DNA from: Monosiga brevicollis MX1
Taxonomy: Eukaryota; Opisthokonta; Choanoflagellata; Craspedida; Salpingoecidae
Direction: 5' to 3'
DNA: 64,000 nt
Assembly (NCBI RefSeq): GCF_000002865.3
Contig: NW_001865040.1
Coordinates: 194,888-258,887, forward strand
In this document: positions 3,527 to 38,429 of the stretch, in pieces
How positions within the stretch are numbered: the first letter of the stretch is position 1
Layout of the letters: the number at the start of each line of letters is the position of its first letter
Made by a program: the position numbers and the translations under genes
Notes under the pieces: generated by a model
Told to the model about the DNA's origin: nothing
Seen by the model: only the letters and a program-made list of their open reading frames with translations
Databases searched by the model: none

Positions 3527-4191
<665 letters not shown>

Positions 4192-6912
4192 ATGCGGTCC
4201 CCTGCCAGGGCATGTGCGACGCGAGGCGCGAGGCCTGGCGACTGGGGCGGCTGGACGATTGCCTTGGCGCTGGTGAGTGTGGTAGGCGCAGTGGCCGCGC
4301 AGGAGAGCTGTACTACATCCGAATTGTTGCGACAGAAGGAACACTTTGCTCGCGCGGGAGCACTTGCGTCGCCTGCCTGCCAAGCTTGGTCATGCTCGGT
4401 CACTGAGCATCTGCCTGAGGTGGAAGCGGACCTGGCTCGGCTGGCAGCACCAGAAGCCAAAGCCTTTTTTCAGGCCATGGGCTCTCACCTTCGTACCGTG
4501 GACGTGCGCCATGCAACAGTACCAACCGCTCTGCTGGGGCACATCGGCCAGCTGCACGGCCTCGAGAAATTAATCCTCGTCAACGCCTCACTCACCCTGC
4601 CCGCTCCACTCGTGGGCTTGTTGGCGGGCTGGCCGCGCCTTCAACACCTCGATTTGGGTGAAAATGTTCTGTCAGCTGAGCAGCTGCCTGCTCTTTTGTC
4701 AACGCTGCACCACACCGCTCCCGCGTTGCAAACCCTTGGCCTAGCTGGTGCACCGGTATCGGACGAGCTGCTAGCGAGGCTGCCTACCCACCTTCCCAAG
4801 GTGGCGCGCCTGGACCTATCTCGAACGCGCGTTACGGGAGACGGTCTGGCTACCTTGCTGGCATCGGACATGAGCGCGCCGGTAGCTGCGCTGCGGCTAC
4901 AGGGGCTCGATTTGAGTGAAGCCAGTGAGTCGGAGCTCAGGACAATCATCACCCGGGCCACAGATCTGGATCTGAGCGGTGCACGTCTTGGTTGGGTATC
5001 TGCCAGCTCAGAAAAGGAGCGCGCATCTGGAAATGCGCCCAAGCGCTTGGTTGCTCGCCGTTTGCAGCAGGGATTGACTGAGCTGGTGAATACTGTGCAA
5101 AGCTCGGGGCTCGTTGAGCTGGACCTCAGCGAGAACTCAATGCCAACCGTGTTTGACGCAGTGCTTGACCTCCTGAGCCGCTCAACGCGGCTTCAAGTTC
5201 TTGGCTTGGATCACACCGAGCTGACTGATGCCGAAGGCGAGCAGCTGATGACTGCATGTCTGCAGCTAACCGGCCTGCGGGAGCTGCGATTGCAGGGGAA
5301 CCAGCTTTCGGACGCTGTGGCTGATGAGCTGGCCTCGCTCCTCAGCACACACAACAGGCTGCGGCTGTTGGACTTGACCAACAACAGCCTGTCTGATTCT
5401 GGGACGGAAGACCTTGCTTCGGCTTTGGCTGACAACCAAGCACTGCAAGAGCTGCACCTGCGGGGAAACGCCATCGAAGATGACGGCGTCGATGCCCTTG
5501 CACGCGCTCTCACAACCAACACGCAGCTTCGCAAACTGGCGCTGGATAGCCATTCGGAAAGGCATTCGACGGATCCGATCCCATCCGCTACAAGCGAAGG
5601 CACTGCATTCTCCGACCCCATGGTGAGCAACGATGCAGCATCAAAGACTTTGGGCAAGCCTGACCGCGCGGCAGCGCCACCCCCGCTGATTCCTCTAACC
5701 ACCGAGTTGGCCGGACAACGTGAGGCCGAGCGTTATGCCCAGCCGGATGAGCAAAAGGCCGCCACTGACGTGGTCCAGGCTGACGCACTGGCCGAGTCGG
5801 AGCTGCGGGCTTTACCCGCGGCTTGGGTGGAGATACAAGCCGCGACGGCAGCCAATAAGCTCGCACCCGAGTGCCCTGTCGGTGCCTTAGTGCAGGACTC
5901 AGAGTGTGTCACCGAATGTGGGCCGGGCTATCTTCATCAAGCTGAGGCGCGCCGCTGCGTACGCTGCAGTAGCCCATGTGCCGCGTGTTCCGGGCGCGTG
6001 AACAATTGCACGGCGTGTGCAGCACCCCTTGTTTTAAGTGGCCACCGATGCGTGGCGGCCTGCGGTCCAGGCATGGTAGAGGAGCCCATCAATGGAACAT
6101 GCTATCCCTGCCACGACGAGTGCAGCGATGCAGGCTGCTTTGGGCCAGGTCCGCGCGAATGCTACGCCTGTCAGCACTTCAGCAACGAGGGCATGTGCAT
6201 GGTTCACTGCCCCAAGGGCAAGAGCCCAGATGGGGCCTATCGGTGCTATGATGTCTCTGCCAGCCCGATGCGGCGGTGGCTGGAGGGGCTGCACCTGAAA
6301 AAGTATGCCGACCTCTTCCACCGGGACAGGATCACTTTTGAGCTGCTGTATGACTTTGATGATGCGGACCTCAAGGAATTGGGCGTGCGCTTCTCTCCGG
6401 AACGAGCCAAGGTGCGACGTGCGGTCAAGCAGCACGTGGAGCAGCTGGATGCCCGTTTTGCACAGTGGGCCCAACGTTTGCACCTGCGTCTGCCAGCGCA
6501 GAGCGTGGCGCATCGGGCCTGGACATTGGGCCAACGTTGGTGGGCCTGGGCAACTGGCGAGGTTTGTGCTGTGCTTGACTATCACGACGTGCAGCGGGAC
6601 TTTATGGCGCAGCCCGCAGCGCGAGCAGTCATTCGGACAGCCCGCAGCGCGCCGGCTGGTGAGGGCCACGAGCACAAGGCACGCTGCCGCCGCGCCTGGA
6701 ACGCTTTTCAAGAGCTCATAGATTTATACAACCCCATGACTTACGCGGCGCGGCACCCAGGCTGCCCTCCCGCAGCGGTTCGCTACTCCACACTGAACCT
6801 GATTCATCGTGGACAGGAGTTGCTCTCTACCTGTGGGCCGCGCCCAGGGCGGGCTGAGGCTACTGCGGCCCTGAGTACAGACACACGCCTTCAAACTCGG
6901 GTGGAGCTCTGA
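4192..6912 (+). CDS. Secreted leucine-rich repeat / Cys-rich (furin-like) / SAM domain protein
   Basis: Single long exon, 906 residues from ATG 4192. The frame stays open through the upstream CT repeat, but that part is low complexity, so I start at the methionine before a signal-peptide-like segment (hydrophobic core WTIALALVSVVGAVAA, residues about 20-35). Residues about 115-480 are ribonuclease-inhibitor-type leucine-rich repeats (e.g. LRLLDLTNNSLSDSGTEDLA). A Ser/Thr/Ala-rich spacer follows. Residues about 560-690 are Cys-rich with CxxC pairs like growth-factor-receptor/furin repeats. Residues about 693-753 form a SAM domain (WLEGLHLKKYADLFHRD, then LKELGVRF). A tail of about 150 residues has no hydrophobic span. 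An out-of-frame ATG lies 11 bases upstream (4181). Function unknown; a surface or secreted recognition protein is an inference from the LRR/Cys-rich part. Confidence 0.85.
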   Translation: MRSPARACATRGARPGDWGGWTIALALVSVVGAVAAQESCTTSELLRQKEHFARAGALASPACQAWSCSVTEHLPEVEADLARLAAPEAKAFFQAMGSHLRTVDVRHATVPTALLGHIGQLHGLEKLILVNASLTLPAPLVGLLAGWPRLQHLDLGENVLSAEQLPALLSTLHHTAPALQTLGLAGAPVSDELLARLPTHLPKVARLDLSRTRVTGDGLATLLASDMSAPVAALRLQGLDLSEASESELRTIITRATDLDLSGARLGWVSASSEKERASGNAPKRLVARRLQQGLTELVNTVQSSGLVELDLSENSMPTVFDAVLDLLSRSTRLQVLGLDHTELTDAEGEQLMTACLQLTGLRELRLQGNQLSDAVADELASLLSTHNRLRLLDLTNNSLSDSGTEDLASALADNQALQELHLRGNAIEDDGVDALARALTTNTQLRKLALDSHSERHSTDPIPSATSEGTAFSDPMVSNDAASKTLGKPDRAAAPPPLIPLTTELAGQREAERYAQPDEQKAATDVVQADALAESELRALPAAWVEIQAATAANKLAPECPVGALVQDSECVTECGPGYLHQAEARRCVRCSSPCAACSGRVNNCTACAAPLVLSGHRCVAACGPGMVEEPINGTCYPCHDECSDAGCFGPGPRECYACQHFSNEGMCMVHCPKGKSPDGAYRCYDVSASPMRRWLEGLHLKKYADLFHRDRITFELLYDFDDADLKELGVRFSPERAKVRRAVKQHVEQLDARFAQWAQRLHLRLPAQSVAHRAWTLGQRWWAWATGEVCAVLDYHDVQRDFMAQPAARAVIRTARSAPAGEGHEHKARCRRAWNAFQELIDLYNPMTYAARHPGCPPAAVRYSTLNLIHRGQELLSTCGPRPGRAEATAALSTDTRLQTRVEL

Positions 6913-7552: not shown

Positions 7553-7617
<65 letters not shown>

Positions 7618-8088: not shown

Positions 8089-9707
8089 ATGCCGTACTTC
8101 AAGTATGACCCTGTGTCGGCCAAGTCGTGGGGCGACGAACATGCCCAAGACACCCAAGCCGCACATCCCTTTATGGGACCCGTTGACATTACCGAAGACG
8201 ACAACAGCTTCACCTTTGTGACGGACTGCCCCGGCCTGTCATCCAAGGTTGGACTGGCGACAGCAGCTGCCACTCGCTCCGTGTGCTCCGCCTTAGCTAC
8301 CGTCTTGCCCGTCTTGCTCACGCTCGTTTCCCTCTTCGCTGCAACGCCTCCTTGTGGGGCATTAGGACGTGCATGTGCGCGTGACCAGTGACCTTTTGCA
8401 GATTAGCGGTGAGCGCACCCCGCGCACCCCGGACCAAAACGAGAAAGTTCATCGGTAAGCCAACTCGCGACTCGCAGAGGCCATGGCCTCGCACCTTGTG
8501 ACATCAAGTATTCCACACTGATGCGTCTTGGTCTGATAGCATGGAGCGCAGCATGGGCAAGTTTTGCCGCACCTTCCGCCTGCCCACGGCCGCCGATCAC
8601 GAGCAGATCACAGCCAACTGCGAGCATGGCGTGTTGACCATTCGCGTTCAAAAGAACCTCAAGCTGGAGCAAGAGCAACTTGCCTTGGCCGACAAGGAAG
8701 CCGAAGTTGAAGGCGACGGCTCCCTGAACGAGGACTTTGCTGGCGTGCCCATGACCATCTTCCCGACCCCTGCCCTGGGCAAGATTATCATCCTCCGCTC
8801 CGACATGTCCATCCTGGAGGCCGTCAACCTGCTCAGCGATAACCACATCCTTTCGGCGCCCGTTCGCGACGTCGATCAGCCTGACGACGCGCCCTGGGAC
8901 TCTATGTACATTGGCATCCTTGACATGATTGGTGTGGTATTCCACATGCTTCAGGTCCTCGACGCTGACGAGTCCCAAGGCGACTTCAAGGAGGACATCT
9001 CCCAGGTGGAGCGCTTCCGCAACACCTCTGTCAAGGAAGCCATCTCGTACTCGCGCTTTGGCCCCTTCATCCCCGTCGACATGGACGCCGGCAATCTGCT
9101 CGACTGCATGCTGCTGGCTGGCCACCATGGCGTGCGCCGCATTCCCGTCGTCAAGACTCCCGGAGGCGGTCTGACCAACATTATCACCCAATCGGCTCTT
9201 GTGCAGACGCTCTCTGCCAACCTTTCCCGCTTCACCTCAGTTGGTGGCAAGACCCTCCGCGATCTTGGTCTCGGCAAGGCTGGCCGCCTTTTCACCGTCA
9301 ACATCAACCAGCCCCTCCGCGAGGCCTTCCGCCTCATCCGCGACAAGGACATTTCCGCCGTTCCCGTGGTGCAGGACGATGGTCGCATTTGTGGCAACAT
9401 TAGCGCGCGCGACGTTCGCCTCATCGTCTCCTCGTCCAAGATCTACAAGCTTCTTGACATGTCCATCAAGGCCTACCTTGACGTGGTGACGGCAGGCAAA
9501 GAAAACAAGGCCGTCGTCTGCGGTCCCGATGACACTATGGAGGACGTCATTCGCAGCCTCGTCGAGAGCCGCATCCACCGCATCTACGTTGTCGATGGCA
9601 ATGATCGCCCCCTGCGCGTCGTTACGCTCCGCAACATCCTCAAAAAATTTGTCAAGGAGCCTCACGGTTACTTTGGTCGCTACTTCTCCAGCGCGTACCC
9701 TGCCTAA
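8089..9707 (+). CDS. HSP20 (alpha-crystallin) domain fused to four AMPK-gamma-like CBS repeats
   Basis: Three exons: 8089-8247, 8366-8454 and 8540-9707 (471 residues), phases consistent. Residues about 15-125 form a complete small-heat-shock-protein fold: FVTDCPGLSSK, DVHVRVTSDLLQISGER across the first junction, then ERSMGKFCRTFRLP and HGVLTIRVQK. From about residue 149 four CBS motifs follow: SILEAVNLLSDNHILSAPV, DCMLLAGHHGVRRIPVV, EAFRLIRDKDISAVPVV with SARDVRLI, and VESRIHRIYVVDGNDRPLRV. The last two resemble AMPK gamma closely. CBS pairs (Bateman modules) bind adenine nucleotides; in AMPK gamma they sense AMP/ATP. Plant SnRK1 beta-gamma proteins carry a carbohydrate-binding module N-terminal to gamma; here an HSP20 domain takes that place. 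Nucleotide sensing or chaperone activity is inference. The usual Asp after the fourth CBS repeat is Asn (TLRNIL). Confidence 0.9.
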
Positions 9708-10262
9708 GTTTGATTGTACCCAAAGGCGGCGTTGATGAGTCGCCTATCTCTGGTCTCCCGGACTGCCGTGCAGTCACGGCGCTGCCCAGAGTGGAGGCTC
9801 CATGCATAGCAATGCGCATCCATATCAGTGTTTCGTTTTGTTTTTGTTGTGTGTCCAGGACACGCTACTTTCTTCCGCTCTAGTCTCTCCTACCTCACAT
9901 GCCAGCGTGTGTGATGTTGACATGTTTCTTTGCGTGTGTGTGTTTGTGTGTCATGTCGACAGAGTTTTATCCTAATTAATAATGGTAAACAAAACCCGAG
10001 TCATGTAGTGCGTCAACTTGAAAGCACGCACGCGCTATTCCATCATCATCATGAGAATGCCACCATCCCATCATCATGAGAATGCCACCATCCATCCAAC
10101 GTTTTTACATGCCAAGCAAAGTCCAACTTTCCGCCCCTCACAGTTTATTCCATTAATTTGTTGCGATTAGGTGTGAAGACAAAAAGAAATCCGAACATAG
10201 AACTATGAGCTGCTAACGTGATTGCACAAACATGACGTGAATGACAAGACATCAGAACGCAT
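9708..10262. other. Convergent intergenic region with a 25-bp tandem duplication
   Basis: 3' flanks of the HSP20-CBS gene (+) and the unknown gene (-). Contains two identical 25-bp copies at 10044-10068 and 10069-10093. AT-rich stretches may include polyadenylation signals. No gene seen. Confidence 0.6.
10044..10093. repeat. 25-bp direct tandem duplication
   Basis: Unit begins catcatcatgagaatgcc and is present twice without mismatch. Confidence 0.95.
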
Positions 10263-13200
10263 TCAAAAAACACTCAGAGACAAGTTGTGTTGAGCAGATG
10301 GCCCTTGATATTCGACAATCTCCAGCACCACCGCTGCAGCCAAATAAACGTCCTAAAGACACAGGTCAAAAGTTCTAGTGAGCATGTTGAACAAGGAAAA
10401 AAAAAAAAAAAAAAAAACCCCAGAAATAAAACAAAATAAAAATAATAATTGAACAGGGCCAGAAGCGTACCGCAAGACGATAAGAAAGAACGTCTCGGCG
10501 ACCGAGCAACGGGATGAGAGTATCGAGCAATAAGGTCGAGCTTTTATTGATCAACTGCTGTGCCGTCGTGTCGGCGCCCAGGACAGTCTCATAGGCCAGA
10601 ACCCGAATACGGGACACCTAGAGCATAAAACAAACGGTCAGCCACCGCTGGCATGGCTTGCCAAGACTATTTGGTGGTCTCTGAGAACGTACTTGCACAG
10701 GGGCCATTGGGGTGAGGCTTTGGCGCACCCGTAGGCAAAGGCCAGACAAAGAGCTATGACTTGGCAAGTTGTAGATGGAAAACCTGTGTGATGGGCAATA
10801 CCAGCCGCCACTTGAATCAGCCTTGGCGAAAAACAATTTGAAGCCTCAAGCACTTCACAACGGATAGCCAGCATCCAACGCACCTTCCACCTTCTAGCTT
10901 GTAAATGGATTGGGCAGCAAGGCAGACGCCCACGTCCGTGAAAGGTTCTGGTATCTCGGGAGGCGCCGAGCAGCGCAGTTTCATGGGCAATTTGGACAGC
11001 TTCTGTTGGGGTTCAAGTAACAAGGCACGAAGCACCAAGTCGCATTCCTAGCACCCAATCAATATCATTTCGCCACGCGAGCAGGCGTCAAGACCAACCC
11101 GCGGTATGAGGAACCATGCGAGAAATAAAAACATTTCAAGCAGGCTGCACAACAAGAGGGCGTCTATGCCTCTTGCTGGTAAAAGTTGGGTGGATAGCTC
11201 ACCGAGGGCGCCGCAAACGTCACCAAGCAGTCATACGGTTCCTGGCCAGCCGCCTCAATCGGTAGCGACGCATCAGCGTGCAGGGCTTGGGCCTGATCCT
11301 CGTTGTTTCCGATCCAAACGCGCCATCTACAGCCCTCGAGCATGGCTGCATCTCTGGCTGGGCGTACAGTCAAGTGCATCGGCCCGACCAGTCCGCAGAG
11401 TCGGACGGTGATCCTGCAACGACCCCGAATACGCCTAAAGATTCAAGCATGGACACACGCCAAGTCACTAGGTGTGTACAGGAATCTGCTGACAGGTGAC
11501 GATGCACATGTGATACCAACACTAACATTGCTTTTGATGAGCCAGCCACATGCTCGTGGTGTAAAAGCCACCACAGCTGCGCATCCACCTACCAATGTTG
11601 AATGCAAGTGTGAGAGAATCAAGCCGAGGGATCTCGTTTCAAAGGAAAAGCAAAAACAAACCCACAATAAACCAAGCGCCACAACTTCTATGCAAACACC
11701 GCGCATGCACAGCGCATACGGCCCCGGGAAAATGATTACCTGCGTCTGATCTGCGGCGCTGCTGGCGGCGGGCTGCATATTAGCCAGCCAAATGCCAACG
11801 ACAGATTCGGCTGTCATGACGCGCCACGGACGGTGCCAACCGGGGCGGGTCGCTTGGCCGGCAGCATCCGTAGCACTCGCCAAGAGTCCGACCTCCCGAA
11901 CGTCGTCATCACCCACATCGGTGCTCCGCAAGCGCAGCTCGTGATAGCAGCGATCCTCAAGGGGGCGCAAAGGGAAAATCCACGTGCGTTTGGTCACACG
12001 GTTTGGTAATCGAATAGTACCGAGCACTTGCTGGGTCGTACCAGTACAACCAATGACTTGCCACGTCACGGCCTCATTCCAATGCAGGTCTGGCACCCGC
12101 AGATAGAGCCCCTCAACGCGCACAGCCCATGGGCATTGCACGAGGATATCCGATCGTCCTTGGCGATAGCGACGCGTGGTCACGCACACCGGTACCTCCT
12201 CGTGGCGAGGCCGCTCCAGAGTTAGGCAGCGCAGTTGTCGGATCTTGTGCGCTTCCTGTTGGGGAAGAATATCTGCCTCCGTTGGACTAGCAAGCAAGAT
12301 GCGCAGAGAAGGCGAAAGATGGCTGTCGTCCGTCAAAAGTTTTAACCATGGCGCCAGCGACTTGAGAGGGTCTGGAGTGCCCTGGAGAAAGCCAAGAACG
12401 CCAAAGTGCGTGGCCAAGTCCTGGCGCTGAGTTGGAGTGTAATGTTCATAAAGCCAGGCCAATGCATCGGGGTTGGCGGAATCTGCTGGGGCGCACAGAC
12501 AGACCCACAGCAAAAACGCCGCCTGCACGAGCTCGCCAGCATCGCGGTCAGCAACAAGAAGAAAGATGGTGGGTACTTCTTGATCGAGGCTTTTCCGTCT
12601 GCGATCTAGAAGACTCTGCAAGGTCGCTGCTGCATCGCGATGACCCATGACATGAAGGAGATGACGCAGTGGCAGGCGTATTGAGGTCGTCAAATCATCC
12701 GCAGCTAGCAGGGTGTTTCGGTAATCAGCAGCGCTCTACGTTGCAAGCAAAGAAAGGCACATGGAAGGGCAGATGATGTCAGGCACGCGGGACCGGACAG
12801 GTTGAGACCAGAACTAGCGGTGATGGTCAAAAGTCGACATCTGTGCATTTTGGGGTGCCACGAACCTCAGAGCCTGGAGCGTCTGGCTGACACAGATCGA
12901 TCAAGCAAATGTTTGGATCCACCTTGGCCGAGTCTGCATTCGAGCAGCTCCCGCTTTTGTCCCGTAATAGCTGCAACAGCTCGGCAGGAGGCTGTGCATG
13001 CGGCGAGGAGAAGAGTTGCACAGAACAAGCACACGGACAAACGTTTTTGGCGTGGTCAGTGTTCATGACCGAATGATCGTTTGCAACGCAGCCATCACAC
13101 ACTGGTTGATGGAGCGTTGGAGCGTTTGATGATTGCGAGCAAGTACGCGTACCGGGAGCACGGGCCCCGAGGTGAGTCGAATGACATTGTGCAGCCAGAT

Positions 13201-14372
13201 AGAATGGTGGCGATCAGGCAGGAGACACTGCAATTGAACAAGGGACTCATGTCGGTAATAAAGCTTTGGCTGGTCCAAGAGAAAGCGACTGCAAGGGTCA
13301 GAGGTGCGTTTGAGAAGATTCGGACCGAAGCCGAGAGCCTGGTGCAGGATATAGGTTGCGATGCATACCAGCATGTCAGCAGCATGTCCTCCAAGACCAA
13401 AGCATGACCAAGATGAGCCGGGGGACACAGGTGGGTTATGAAGCGTCGCTGTACACTGGCAAAGCAGCGACGCATGCCCACGTTCCAGCAGAGAGCATCT
13501 ATCCCTCCATGCGAACGAAGCATGCCGTGGAGATCATGGGCGTGTGCGGGTAAGGAGTGAGCTGAACCTAGTCATGGGGAAATCGATGGTACGACGAAGC
13601 CAAAGGGATACCAGGTTCGGCAAGTTGTGTAAGCTCAGAGGCGTCCACGACCACGGCTCCATCGATGGGCATGTCGGGGATATTGGCTGGGTCATGCTCC
13701 ATTGGGATTGAGGCCAGCGATAGCCAAGCCGATTGGCGCAAGACCTAACCAGACCAGCGATGAATGGCATTGAGCGATTGGCGGATCTGATCAACTCTGG
13801 GCGTGGAGGGGTGCAGGAAGGTAGAGAGGCGGCAGACCATGAATTTTCGTTGGTGCAACTCAACGGTCTGCAATTCAAGAGGTAGCAGCAGCCAGGATGC
13901 TTCGGGCCGCGCGAGTCGGCCTAAGATGAAGGGAACCGAGCTGCGAGTCACAGAGGTGAGATAGGCGGCACTGGGGTCTTGATTTGCTCTTGGAGTCAAG
14001 GCGACCAGCTGCGTACATTTGCTTGAATTTGCAGGTGGCATGCCACTGATGGAGAATGTCAATGGCGGCCTCGGCAGAATCTGCATGCTCCATCACCACA
14101 CGGGGTCGGCGAGGCGCTGGGGGCACAGCAACGGCGACATGTTGTCCAGAGCCCGCGGCACTCTCAGCCACGACATAGATAAAACGCGCTCTATGGGAGG
14201 GGGGTCATTCAAAAGGGCCGATGAGGACAGTGCCTGCTAGGGTGAAATCGGTTTGCTGGGAGGGTGGACGACGGAAAAGGCTGAAGCATGAGTCGAGAGG
14301 CATGGAAAATTCATGTCTGCGAGGCAGGGTTGGCACGCACTCGGCGTTGTGGGCCAGCACGACGAGCGGCAT
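10263..14372 (-). CDS. Multi-exon gene of unknown function
   Basis: Not recognised. Supported exons, in transcript order, include about 13870-14170 (FIYVVAESAAGSG; AIDILHQWHATCKFKQMY), 13770-13950 (SVPFILGRLARPEASWLLL), 13580-13700 (NIPDMPIDGAVVVDASEL), 13210-13410 (ATYILHQALGFGPNLLKR), 12830-13030, a large exon about 11750-12730 (SIRLPLRHLLHVMGHRDAA; HEELRLRSTDV-type beta-rich text), about 11165-11330, 10866-11048 (PMKLRCSAPPEIPEPFTDVG), 10471-10617 (LLLDTLIPLLGRRDVLSYRL) and 10263-10352 (AAAVVLEIVEYQG, then stop). The protein would be soluble, helix-rich first and beta-rich later, with no signal peptide or membrane span. The start (ATG 14372, MPLVVLAHNAEC) is tentative and two genes are possible. 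A TRAPPC10/11-type trafficking subunit was considered but not supported. Confidence 0.45.
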
Positions 14373-34454: not shown

Positions 34455-37400
34455 ATGGATCAAGGACGCAAGGTCTGGGCGCCCAATGTGGCCGAGGGCT
34501 TCATTCTGGGTGAAATCTCGGACTTTGGCGCCGACACCCTCACTGTTCAGCCCATCGACGGTGGCAAGGTCAGTTGCCACACCTCGACCCTTTGCCCTTC
34601 CCCCGTCCAGTTTTATTCAGTCATCTGTGATACGGCTACTTACCTCAAAACTGCGTTTCATGATGCTGTTTTAGCCCATCGATGCCCCTTACGATGCCGT
34701 CTACCCTGCAGAGGAGGAGGATGCCAAGGATGTGGCCGATAACTGTACGTATCATCGACGCAAACACCCGTGTCAAGGCTTGAGCAGTGACCGATTTCTC
34801 CGATGCTGATGGCTGTGATCCCAATGCTTCTTGCAGGCGCCCTCATGTACCTGAACGAGGCAACCCTCCTCCATAACCTGCGTCGCCGCTTCATGAAGGA
34901 CGACATTTACACCTACACGGCCAACATCCTTCTGGCCATCAACCCTTACCATACCTTGGACATTTACGGCAAGGAAGTGCAGGCCCGTTACCGCGGCGCC
35001 TCGCTCGGTGTGGAGCCCCCGCACGTCTACGCCATTGGTATGTGAGCCGCACCCTTCTTGGTAAACAAACCATCGCCGAGCTACCACGCCTTACCAGCTA
35101 TTTCCTCACGATGTTGCGTCGCTTGCATCATCTCCTTAGCCGACAAGGCCTACCGTGACATGCGTAACCTTCGCCTGAGCCAGGGTATCATTGTCAGTGG
35201 TGAGTCGGGTGCCGGTAAGACCGAATCCACCAAGCACATTCTGCGCTACCTTACCGACTCGTACGGTGGCGGTGGCAACGTCGCCGACCTCGAGTCGCGC
35301 ATTCTGGCCGCCAACCCTTTCCTCGAGTCGTTTGGTAACGCCAAGACCACGCGTAACAACAACTCGTCGCGTTTCGGCAAGTTTGTGGAACTCCACTTCA
35401 ACCGCAACGCCCTTGTTGTGGGTGCCTACATTGAGCACTACCTCCTTGAAAAGTCACGCATCATTGAGCAGTCGGACAAGGAACGTAACTACCACGTCTT
35501 TTACCGCCTTTGCAAGGGTGCCCCCGACAACGTGCGCACCGCCCTCAACCTGGGTGCCGTCGACTCGTACGAGTACCTCAAGCACGGTATCTGCACTGAC
35601 GTCCAGTTCCTTGATGACAAGAAGGACTTTGCCATCATGGAAAAGTCCATGGACGACTGTGGTCTCAGCGGCGAGGAGAAGTCAAACGTCTTCCGCATCT
35701 CTGCTGCCGTGCTGCACATTGGTAACATCTCCTTCGATGATTCTGGTGATGATGGTACCGCCACCGTTGCGGCGGACAGCCAAAAGTCGCTCGAGGGTGT
35801 CGCCAAGATGCTCGGCCTCGAAAAGGATGCCTTCAGCGAGTGCATGTGCTACAACTTCCTGAACATTGCCGGTAACGAGATGAAGAAGGGCAAGACCGTC
35901 GAAGACGCGCGCTTCAACCGCAACGCCCTGGCCAAGGCCATGTACTCAAAGCTCTTCGACTGGATTGTCGCCCGTATCAACCAGTGCTTCCCCTTTGACC
36001 GCTCTGAGAACTTTATCGGTGTCCTCGATATCGCCGGCTTCGAGTACTTCCAGGTCAACAGCTTTGAGCAGTTTTGCATCAACTACTGTAACGAGAAGCT
36101 TCAGCAGTTCTTCAACGAGCGCGTCCTCAAGGACGAGCAGGAGCTCTACGTCAAGGAGTCGATCAAGTTCAAGGAGGTTGAGTTTGTGGACAACCAGGAC
36201 TGCATTGACCTCATTGAGCTCAAGGGCACTGGTATCCTCTCCATCCTGGATGAGCAGTCCAAGCTGCCCCGTGCCAACGACGAGGCTTTCACCGAGAAGC
36301 TCCACCAGGTGCACAAGGATCACTTCCGCCTCCAGCTGCCCCGCAAGTCCAAGATGGCTTACTACAAGAAGCTTCGCGATGCCGAAGGCTTTATTGTTCG
36401 CCACTTTGCCGGTGCTGTCTGCTACCAGACCAACGGCTTTATCGATAAGAACAACGATGCTCTCACTTACGATCTGGCCGCCCTCATGGACAGCTCCAAG
36501 GATCCCTTCACCCGTGCTCTCTTTGAGGCCAAGGAGGGTGATCCCAAGCCTCAGAAGGGCAAGATTACCCTCATCTCCCTGGGCAGCAAGTTTATCGGCG
36601 CCCTTGGCCAGCTCATGGACAAGCTCCGCTCCACCCGCTCCTCTTTCATCCGCTGCATCAAGCCCAACCAGAAGATGCAGCCCAAGCTCTTCAGCGGCGG
36701 CGAAATTCTCTCCCAGCTGCAGTGCGCTGGCATGGTCTCCGTGCTTGACCTCATGCAGGGTGGTTTCCCCTCGCGTACGGCGTTCCAGGACCTGTACGAC
36801 ATGTACAAGTCGGTGCTGCCCCCTGCACTGGCCTCGCTCGACCCTCGTACCTTCGCCAAGGCCCTCTTCAAGGCCCTTGGTCTGAACGAGGACGATTTCC
36901 AGTTTGGTGTTTCCAAGGTCTTCTTCCGCCCCGGCAAGTTTGCTGAGTTTGACACCATTATGAAGTCTGACCCCGAGAACTTGCAGAAGCTGGTTGGCAA
37001 GGTCATGGAGTGGCTTGTCAAGCAGCGCTGGAAAAAGCTGGCCTGGGCTTGCGTCTCGTGCCTCAAGTTTGCCGCCAAGATTCGTGCTCGCGCTGGCTCA
37101 GCCATTACGATCCAGAAGACCGTGCTCATGTACCTTGCGCGCCGCACCCACAAGCCTCGCTACCAGGGCATCAAGCGCCTCAGCCAGTTCCGCGATCAGC
37201 TCCACACCCTCGGCGAGGTCGTGGAGAAGCTCGAGAAGAACAAAGAGAAGTTCCAGAAGATTGTCGGCGACATCAACGGCGAGCTTGATACGGCTATCAA
37301 CAAGATCAAGACCTCAGACTCGATCACCCGTGATGACATCAACAACCTTGCCAAGGGCATGGAGGACAAGATGGAGAAGCAGCTGGCTGCTATCCGCAAG

Positions 37401-38429
37401 GAGCAGGAGAAGCAAAAGCTTCAGGCCGAGGCGGACCGTTTGAAGAAGCTGGCCGAGGAGAAGGAACGCCAGCGTAAGCAACGTGAGGACGAGGAGCGCG
37501 AACGCCAGGCTGCCGAGGAGGAGGCCCGTCGTGTCAAGGACATGGAGGCCCAGGCAAAGAAGGAGGCCGACGAGGAAGCTAAGCGCATGGAGCAACTCCG
37601 CATCCAGAAGGAGAAGGAGGAGCACAACGCCAAGCTTCAGCAGAAGCGCTCCGAGGAAGCCAAGCGCGAGGCTGAAGAGCAGGCCCGTGCCGAGCAGGAA
37701 CGCCGTGACCAGGAACTGGCCATGCGTTTGGCCCAGGATCAGGCCAACCCTGATCAGGCCCTTACGGATGAGGCTCGTGAGGCCATTGCCAAGGGCCCCG
37801 CCGTTAAGCGCAAGAACCTGCGTGCCGTTACCCACTCGAGCAAGAACGTCGAGAAGGCGCACAAGCGCCACGACCTCAGCAAGTGGAAGTATGCCGATCT
37901 CCGCGACACGATCAACACGTCGTGCGACATTGACCTGCTCGAGGCTTGCCGTGAGGAGTTCCATCGTCGTCTGAAGGTATACCACGCTTGGAAGATGAAG
38001 AACCAGCAGAAGCAGGCTGCTCAGCAGTCGCGCACGCCCTCTGCTCTGCACCAGGCGGCTACATCGCGCTCGGCGGCCCCTGCGCCCCCGGCCAAGGCCA
38101 AGGCCAAGAAAGGCGAGCTGCCCCAGCGCTACTTCCGCATCCCCTTTGTTCGTCCCGATCAGGACAAGAAGGCTGGTTACCAGAAGAAGGGCTGGTGGTT
38201 CGCTCACTTCCACGGTCAGTGGATCGCCCGCCAGATGGAGCTGCACCCCGACAAGCCCCCGGTCCTTCTCGTGGCTGGCAAGGACGACATGGAGATGTGC
38301 GAGCTCAGCCTCGACGAGACAGGTCTGTCCCGCAAGCGCGGTGCTGAGATTCTGGCTCGCGAGTTCGAGGAGGAGTGGAAGAAGCACGGCGGCCAGCCCT
38401 ATGTCGTGGCCACGCCTGCCAAGAAGTAA
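34455..38429 (+). CDS. MYO6: Myosin VI heavy chain
   Basis: Four exons (34455-34568, 34675-34744, 34837-35037, 35140-38429), 1224 residues. The start [11 protein letters not shown] matches the human MEDGKPVWAPH start. The motor has [12 protein letters not shown] (P-loop), [10 protein letters not shown] (switch I), [17 protein letters not shown] (switch II) and a complete actin-binding region. After the converter comes the myosin VI reverse-gear region ([17 protein letters not shown]) and one IQ-like helix ([16 protein letters not shown]). A helical tail then has a long charged single-alpha-helix/coil (about 37390-37760). The cargo domain contains the RRL motif ([15 protein letters not shown]) and [19 protein letters not shown] with [15 protein letters not shown]. 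In animals it is the minus-end-directed actin motor of endocytosis and microvilli. Oddities: the insert-1 region is missing, the WWY adaptor motif reads WWF, and the C-terminus after the last helix is shorter than in animals. Confidence 0.98.

Follow-up and report, generated by a model that had tools for sequence, protein, structure and literature searches.

One stretch of the genome of the choanoflagellate Monosiga brevicollis MX1 appears to join two protein modules of quite different kinds: a small heat-shock domain and a module resembling the nucleotide sensor of AMP kinase (AMPK). We asked whether a single gene really encodes both, what kind of protein it would make, and how such a gene could have arisen. 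The DNA that we analysed (the window) comprises 64,000 nucleotides of contig NW_001865040.1, and all coordinates below refer to it.

One gene for an HSP20 domain and four CBS units

The spliced coding sequence, on the forward strand, has 1416 nt and is predicted to encode 471 residues, with two GT-AG introns in phases 0 and 2 (Table 1). The original prediction had placed the splice sites at these positions, and they proved right: a plant class I HSP20 query and a query from a small heat-shock protein (sHSP) of the same genome each picked both introns when run against the raw DNA with a spliced aligner. A further candidate intron (8633-9035), which appeared when human gamma1 was the query and the intron penalty was low, was rejected as false; it lies at the ragged N-terminal edge of that query.

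Table 1. Features of the gene, in window coordinates.
Feature	Position	Strand	Remarks
Exon 1	8089..8247	+	Start codon, 31-aa N-terminal arm, first part of HSP20/alpha-crystallin domain (aa 1-53)
Intron 1	8248..8365	+	118 nt, GT-AG, phase 0; plant and own-genome HSP20 queries agree
Exon 2	8366..8454	+	Middle of HSP20 domain; spliced alignment
Intron 2	8455..8539	+	85 nt, GT-AG, phase 2; plant and own-genome HSP20 queries agree
Exon 3	8540..9707	+	Second half of HSP20 domain, linker, entire CBS module, stop codon; one open frame
Linker	8655..8732	+	aa 122-147; end uncertain (aa 147 to 159); Pfam HSP20 match reaches aa 127
Gamma-like four-CBS module	8733..9704	+	aa 148-471; Pfam, PDB and paralog alignment
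CBS3 unit	9288..9422	+	Asp245 equivalent kept; phase-0 intron of the paralogs just before CBS3 absent here
CBS4 unit	9507..9650	+	Asp317 equivalent is Asn

Both domains were recovered by profile searches. The Pfam HSP20 family matched residues 33-127 over profile positions 1-93 of 102 (E 7.1e-22; 77.9 bits against a cut-off of 20.8), and the Pfam CBS family matched with an E of 3.2e-29, three stretches passing individually, i.e., three of the four CBS units. We recognise the fourth because the CBS part matches fission-yeast AMPK gamma (PDB 2qr1_G) end to end, at query positions 39-333 (9.8e-18). None of the 17 NCBIfam families listed scored above its own cut-off. The predicted resemblance to AMPK gamma held up, since the best PDB matches of the CBS part are AMPK gamma chains (human gamma1 at 8.6e-18, with 350 aa of the window protein).

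The two domains share exon 3. A stop-to-stop frame of 401 aa (8502-9707) spans both, and of the 95 residues in the Pfam HSP20 match 51 come from exons 1-2 and 44 from exon 3. The aligned HSP20 domain ends at aa 121, and the first residue locally aligned with a CBS paralog is aa 160, 114 nt further on; a weak global alignment with the paralog N-termini already begins at about aa 146-149, some 78 nt past the HSP20 end. The exon 3 frame contains no in-frame stop between the HSP20 and CBS parts, and a spacing of 78-114 nt could hardly accommodate both the 3' end of one gene and the 5' end of the next. A tandem of two genes was rejected on account of the continuous open frame and the short spacing. 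It might still be imagined that the locus has two separate transcription units, or an isoform with the CBS part alone, with the main product starting inside exon 3 and the fused frame a by-product. Internal ATG codons, including one at 8541 at the very start of exon 3, would allow this, but the same uninterrupted frame and short spacing speak against it, as does the fact that the part of the HSP20 domain held by exons 1-2 needs exon 3 for the rest; we consider it highly improbable. The Pfam and PDB matches and the shared exon all agree with the predicted order, HSP20 N-terminal to four CBS units in one protein, and confirm, as read from the genomic DNA, one gene encoding an HSP20 and four-CBS chimera.

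Codon composition was examined along the gene. Third-position GC ranges from 0.68 to 0.82 over five segments, and from 0.73 to 0.82 in the codons of the HSP20, linker and CBS parts. Codons ending in A make up 0.09 of the HSP20 part, 0.03 of the CBS part and 0.19 of the linker, which has 26 codons. An antisense open frame of 277 aa (8403-9236, reverse strand) faces exon 3 and is probably a shadow of codon bias. Upstream, a TG repeat lies at 7555-7615, about 470 bases 5' of the start codon. A pattern scan for a three-unit heat-shock element, allowing up to one mismatch, gave no match between 7000 and 8089; window-wide it gave 11 matches against 14.1 expected, the first at 13309 and none near the gene. 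An AlphaFold prediction of exon 3 alone, run with no alignment, had a mean pLDDT of 35.

Relatives of the HSP20 domain and of the whole protein

The closest PDB structure to the HSP20 part is a plant 18.1 kDa class I protein (5.9e-19), with 48% identity over 90 columns. The domain has a conserved core, to which the GVL region and the stretch preceding it belong. In a tree of HSP20 domains (84 rows, 91 columns) from which eukaryotic rows are almost absent, the window domain lies close to a plant class I domain, without support. A six-frame search of the 39.47-Mb assembly (57 contigs), made exon by exon so that its counts are lower bounds, found HSP20 matches at three places: the window and two stand-alone sHSPs (L028 and L029). 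Spliced alignment showed that the introns in the window's HSP20 part are common to neither of these. In the same tree, the L028 and L029 domains group with four picocyanobacterial ones (95/87), apart from the window's domain; gene transfer is possible, in a tree that is weakly resolved.

In sHSPs, a C-terminal I-X-I/V tail links oligomers. Both stand-alone sHSPs of the genome keep it, and by eye it is absent from the linker that follows the HSP20 domain in the window protein, which makes large oligomers or cages of the sHSP type less likely. Plant class I and bacterial sHSPs have the HSP20 domain in common with the window protein, but where they carry the tail the window protein has a linker and a CBS module instead.

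We then asked whether similar proteins occur elsewhere, in searches that sample prokaryotes, plasmids and viruses; a relative would be expected in eukaryotes. We kept 80 bacterial loci, of at least 534, related to the HSP20 part. In contrast to the 471 aa of the window protein, the stop-to-stop frames at all 80 are 139-240 aa long, so that none exceeds 250 aa; two of them are cut off by the end of a contig. A search with the whole protein gave 17 matches, spread over 10 bacterial genomes; all are HSP20-only by query range and lie in frames of 147-212 aa. With this query, two of 297 genomes of one phylum, searched at 1e-20, gave a match, both again HSP20-only. It also matched 1437 plasmid records, and in none of them did a single place cover more than 80% of the query. 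The viral searches yielded two relatives of the HSP20 part, and no relative of the CBS part was confirmed among 66 pattern matches.

Nor did we find an HSP20-CBS protein in the literature, mostly non-subscription papers, or in the prokaryotic DNA searched. In the accessible parts of five papers that mention both domains (PMC6629376, PMC5852551, PMC12529230, PMC7902927 and PMC6011575), CBS domain and Hsp20/alpha-crystallin concern different proteins, and the same holds for the accessible part of PMC1534042, checked without the term 'Hsp20'. Within that scope, the claim that no described family has this layout stands. One genome is so far the only one known to carry the fusion, and the pairing of HSP20 with four CBS units would be an undescribed combination of two known kinds, as far as the literature and prokaryotes were searched.

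The CBS module and the AMPK subunits of the genome

The original prediction had also offered a second reading, a gamma subunit with a substitute for its usual N-terminal module. This depends on which AMPK subunits the genome holds elsewhere. A canonical gamma gene, L025, shares 52% of 122 aligned residues with human gamma1 (55% over 169 columns), and its 111-aa exon matches human gamma1 in the PDB at 7.9e-35. One AMPK beta C-terminal domain was found (L013, 6.5e-26). An alpha-like gene, L039, has kinase exons matching at 5.2e-9 and 1.1e-9 together with an AdenylateSensor match below cut-off; the genome search for AdenylateSensor gave nothing at E 0.001 and, at E 10, two sub-threshold exon pieces, which the kinase exons of the locus support. 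From these matches L039 is likely AMPK alpha. With canonical gamma, beta and alpha-like genes all encoded elsewhere, the window protein is not the genome's replaced gamma subunit.

It belongs instead with four divergent four-CBS paralogs of the same genome (L022, L023, L024 and L026). Over 169 columns the window protein is 30-36% identical to these four, against 26% for L025 and 29% for human gamma1. The value for L023 and L026 (30%) is barely above that for human gamma1, so identity alone hardly separates its relatives. A tree of seven sequences did separate them, splitting L025 and human gamma1 from the five divergent genes with 100/100 support; the order within the five is poorly settled, and long branches were flagged. 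The end branch of the window copy is the shortest of the five (0.51 versus 1.43-4.72), which hints that this copy is the most constrained, with the caveat that the paralog models were built with the window protein as guide, which may inflate the other branches and partly explain its short one.

We then examined individual residues, numbered as in human gamma1 and anchored at K170/R171 as in PMC6274893. According to the parts of that paper available to us, the K170/R171 pair couples the CBS3 nucleotide of gamma to the alpha linker, and R171A is among the changes that make human AMPK non-responsive to AMP. Five positions involved in coupling to alpha (K170, R171, K174, F175 and F179) correspond to Ser, Ala, Gln, Thr and Asn in the window protein and to Lys, Arg, His, Phe and Asn in the model of canonical L025. 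K174 and F179 thus differ in L025 too and carry little weight, as they do not discriminate; the F175 equivalent is also Phe in the divergent paralog L023. All five divergent genes have lost the K170/R171 pair, a feature that the paralogs share with the window protein along with their side of the tree.

These results bear on the possibility that the protein is an alternative AMPK gamma subunit, with HSP20 in place of the N-terminal module. Its best PDB matches are, after all, AMPK gamma chains, and alpha-like and beta genes are present in the genome. Divergent gamma proteins exist, too. Plant AKINbetagamma, AKINgamma and PV42 are, like the window protein, divergent four-CBS relatives of Snf4. 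In AKINbetagamma the beta-sandwich domain ahead of the CBS units is a carbohydrate-binding module, not HSP20. The accessible part of PMC3080427 places plant gamma-type proteins in three groups and reports that AKINbetagamma contributes to SnRK1 complexes. Against a gamma role stand the separate canonical gamma, the 100/100 split that sets the window protein apart from it, and the substitutions at the alpha-coupling positions, including the residue whose mutation abolishes the AMP response. Given the same three observations, the predicted replaced gamma subunit is not supported, and we regard an alternative gamma subunit as improbable.

What the module could bind is a separate matter. Equivalents of Arg152, Ser226, Asp245, His298 and Arg299 are kept in the window protein, and five others carry substitutions (Arg for His151, Ser for Lys170, Thr for Ser314, Arg for Ser316 and Asn for Asp317); apart from K170/R171, we take the listed gamma1 residues to be nucleotide contacts. 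The CBS1 Asp90 equivalent is Gly in an alignment to the human sequence made by hand. Of the conserved aspartates of CBS1, CBS3 and CBS4, one of three is therefore kept, that of CBS3; the accessible part of PMC11088877 mentions conserved aspartates without position numbers. Among the paralogs, Asp317 is kept in all four and Asp245 in three. In sum, the window protein shares with AMPK gamma and Snf4 the four tandem CBS units, the CBS3 Asp and the CBS4 His-Arg, and it differs from them in lacking equivalents of K170/R171, of Asp317 and (by hand) of Asp90, and in its added HSP20 domain. It appears to retain mainly a CBS3-like nucleotide pocket. When CBS3 is the sole working site, AMP binding is weak and ATP is preferred, according to the same parts of PMC6274893, so a lone CBS3-like site would be no sharp AMP sensor. 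Control of the window protein by adenylates (AMP/ATP), as had been proposed, is possible.

Origin and possible function of the fusion

Intron positions offer some indication of how the fusion arose. In spliced alignments all four paralogs have a phase-0 intron at an identical codon boundary just before CBS3; its lengths (88, 148, 137 and 136 nt) are all indivisible by 3. For L022 and L026 this intron was recovered again with three queries at a lower intron penalty; their N-terminal models at that penalty were unstable, and only the pre-CBS3 intron was used for both. L023 has six introns in its CBS part and L024 seven, at both penalties tried. The canonical gamma has its introns at other positions than this one. 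A spliced alignment with a paralog query placed no intron in the window's CBS part. No HSP20 match was found near any of the four paralogs in the six-frame search, and visual inspection of L022, L023 and L024 showed a start codon shortly ahead of CBS1 in each. An intronless CBS part beside intron-bearing paralogs suggests either that a processed copy was joined to an sHSP gene or that introns were lost later. Since long single-exon frames occur nearby, a lack of introns is not in itself unusual in this region. Just 5' of the gene, at 3682-6912 (+), the window has a single frame of 1076 aa with leucine-rich repeats, a growth-factor-receptor/furin-like cysteine-rich region and a SAM domain, and at 35046-38429 (+) a single frame of 1127 aa for a myosin VI, in which motor, lever arm and cargo-binding domain are all present.

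Under the processed-copy route, an intronless four-CBS copy would have been joined to the last exon of an sHSP gene, where it replaced the C-terminal tail. Under the alternative, the fusion took place while the gene was intron-rich, and its 3' introns later disappeared through recombination with a partial cDNA. In cDNA-driven loss the 3' introns go and the 5' ones stay, the very pattern of this gene, which retains two introns at its 5' side and none at its 3' side. The marks of a retrocopy are also poor. The only A run nearby, of 21 nt at 10397-10417, lies 690 nt past the stop, and the window contains four A runs of 12 or more; no shared flanking word of 9 or more was found around the CBS part at the places compared, and repeats within 8560-10300 are weak or internal. 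Nothing speaks decisively against the loss route, which predicts the same present structure as the processed copy, and we give it somewhat less than an even chance. It is also possible that the pre-CBS3 intron was gained in an ancestor of the four paralogs, the order within the five genes being unsettled. Also 3' of the gene, a 25-nt sequence is duplicated exactly in tandem at 10044-10093.

In the explanation that we favour, and to which we give an even chance of being right, an HSP20 domain of plant/bacterial type was fused, by way of a processed copy, to a non-canonical gamma-like disc of four CBS units, making a ligand-gated chaperone independent of AMPK alpha. The window's domain would dimerise in the way of plant and bacterial HSP20 domains, as the relevant stretch aligns with the plant domain, and would bind exposed hydrophobic surfaces. 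The CBS disc would bind one ligand, either an adenine nucleotide or something like it, with the CBS3/CBS4 half as the most likely site. Binding would alter how the HSP20 part assembles or engages its clients, so that the protein would work as a ligand-gated chaperone without AMPK alpha. The gating step itself we purely infer. Weighing against this explanation are the changed nucleotide positions, the weak AMP binding of CBS3 as a sole site, the missing I-X-I/V tail, the poor retrocopy marks and the negative scan for heat-shock elements 5' of the gene. In the parts of the literature accessible to us, sHSPs are described as ATP-independent chaperones. We know of no ligand switch acting on an sHSP.

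The HSP20 domain might instead be a dimerisation or targeting arm and nothing more, with the CBS disc a scaffold or ligand binder that exerts no control over a chaperone. The missing I-X-I/V tail and the loss of several nucleotide positions would fit such an arrangement, and CBS modules often serve in assembly or regulation. It sits less well with the conserved HSP20 core, GVL region and preceding stretch included, and with the retained equivalents of Asp245, His298 and Arg299; on balance we think it unlikely, if a serious contender.

A more specific form of the ligand-gated chaperone, in which client binding by the HSP20 part is switched by adenine nucleotide bound to the CBS disc, thereby linking energy state to protein protection while bypassing AMP kinase, in a protein born from a processed copy, appears distinctly unlikely to us. 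If true, it would mean that M. brevicollis has a chaperone that reads the cell's energy state directly, a question that can be addressed with one recombinant protein. The gene may also be a case of a new domain pairing that came about when an intronless gene copy was joined to another gene.
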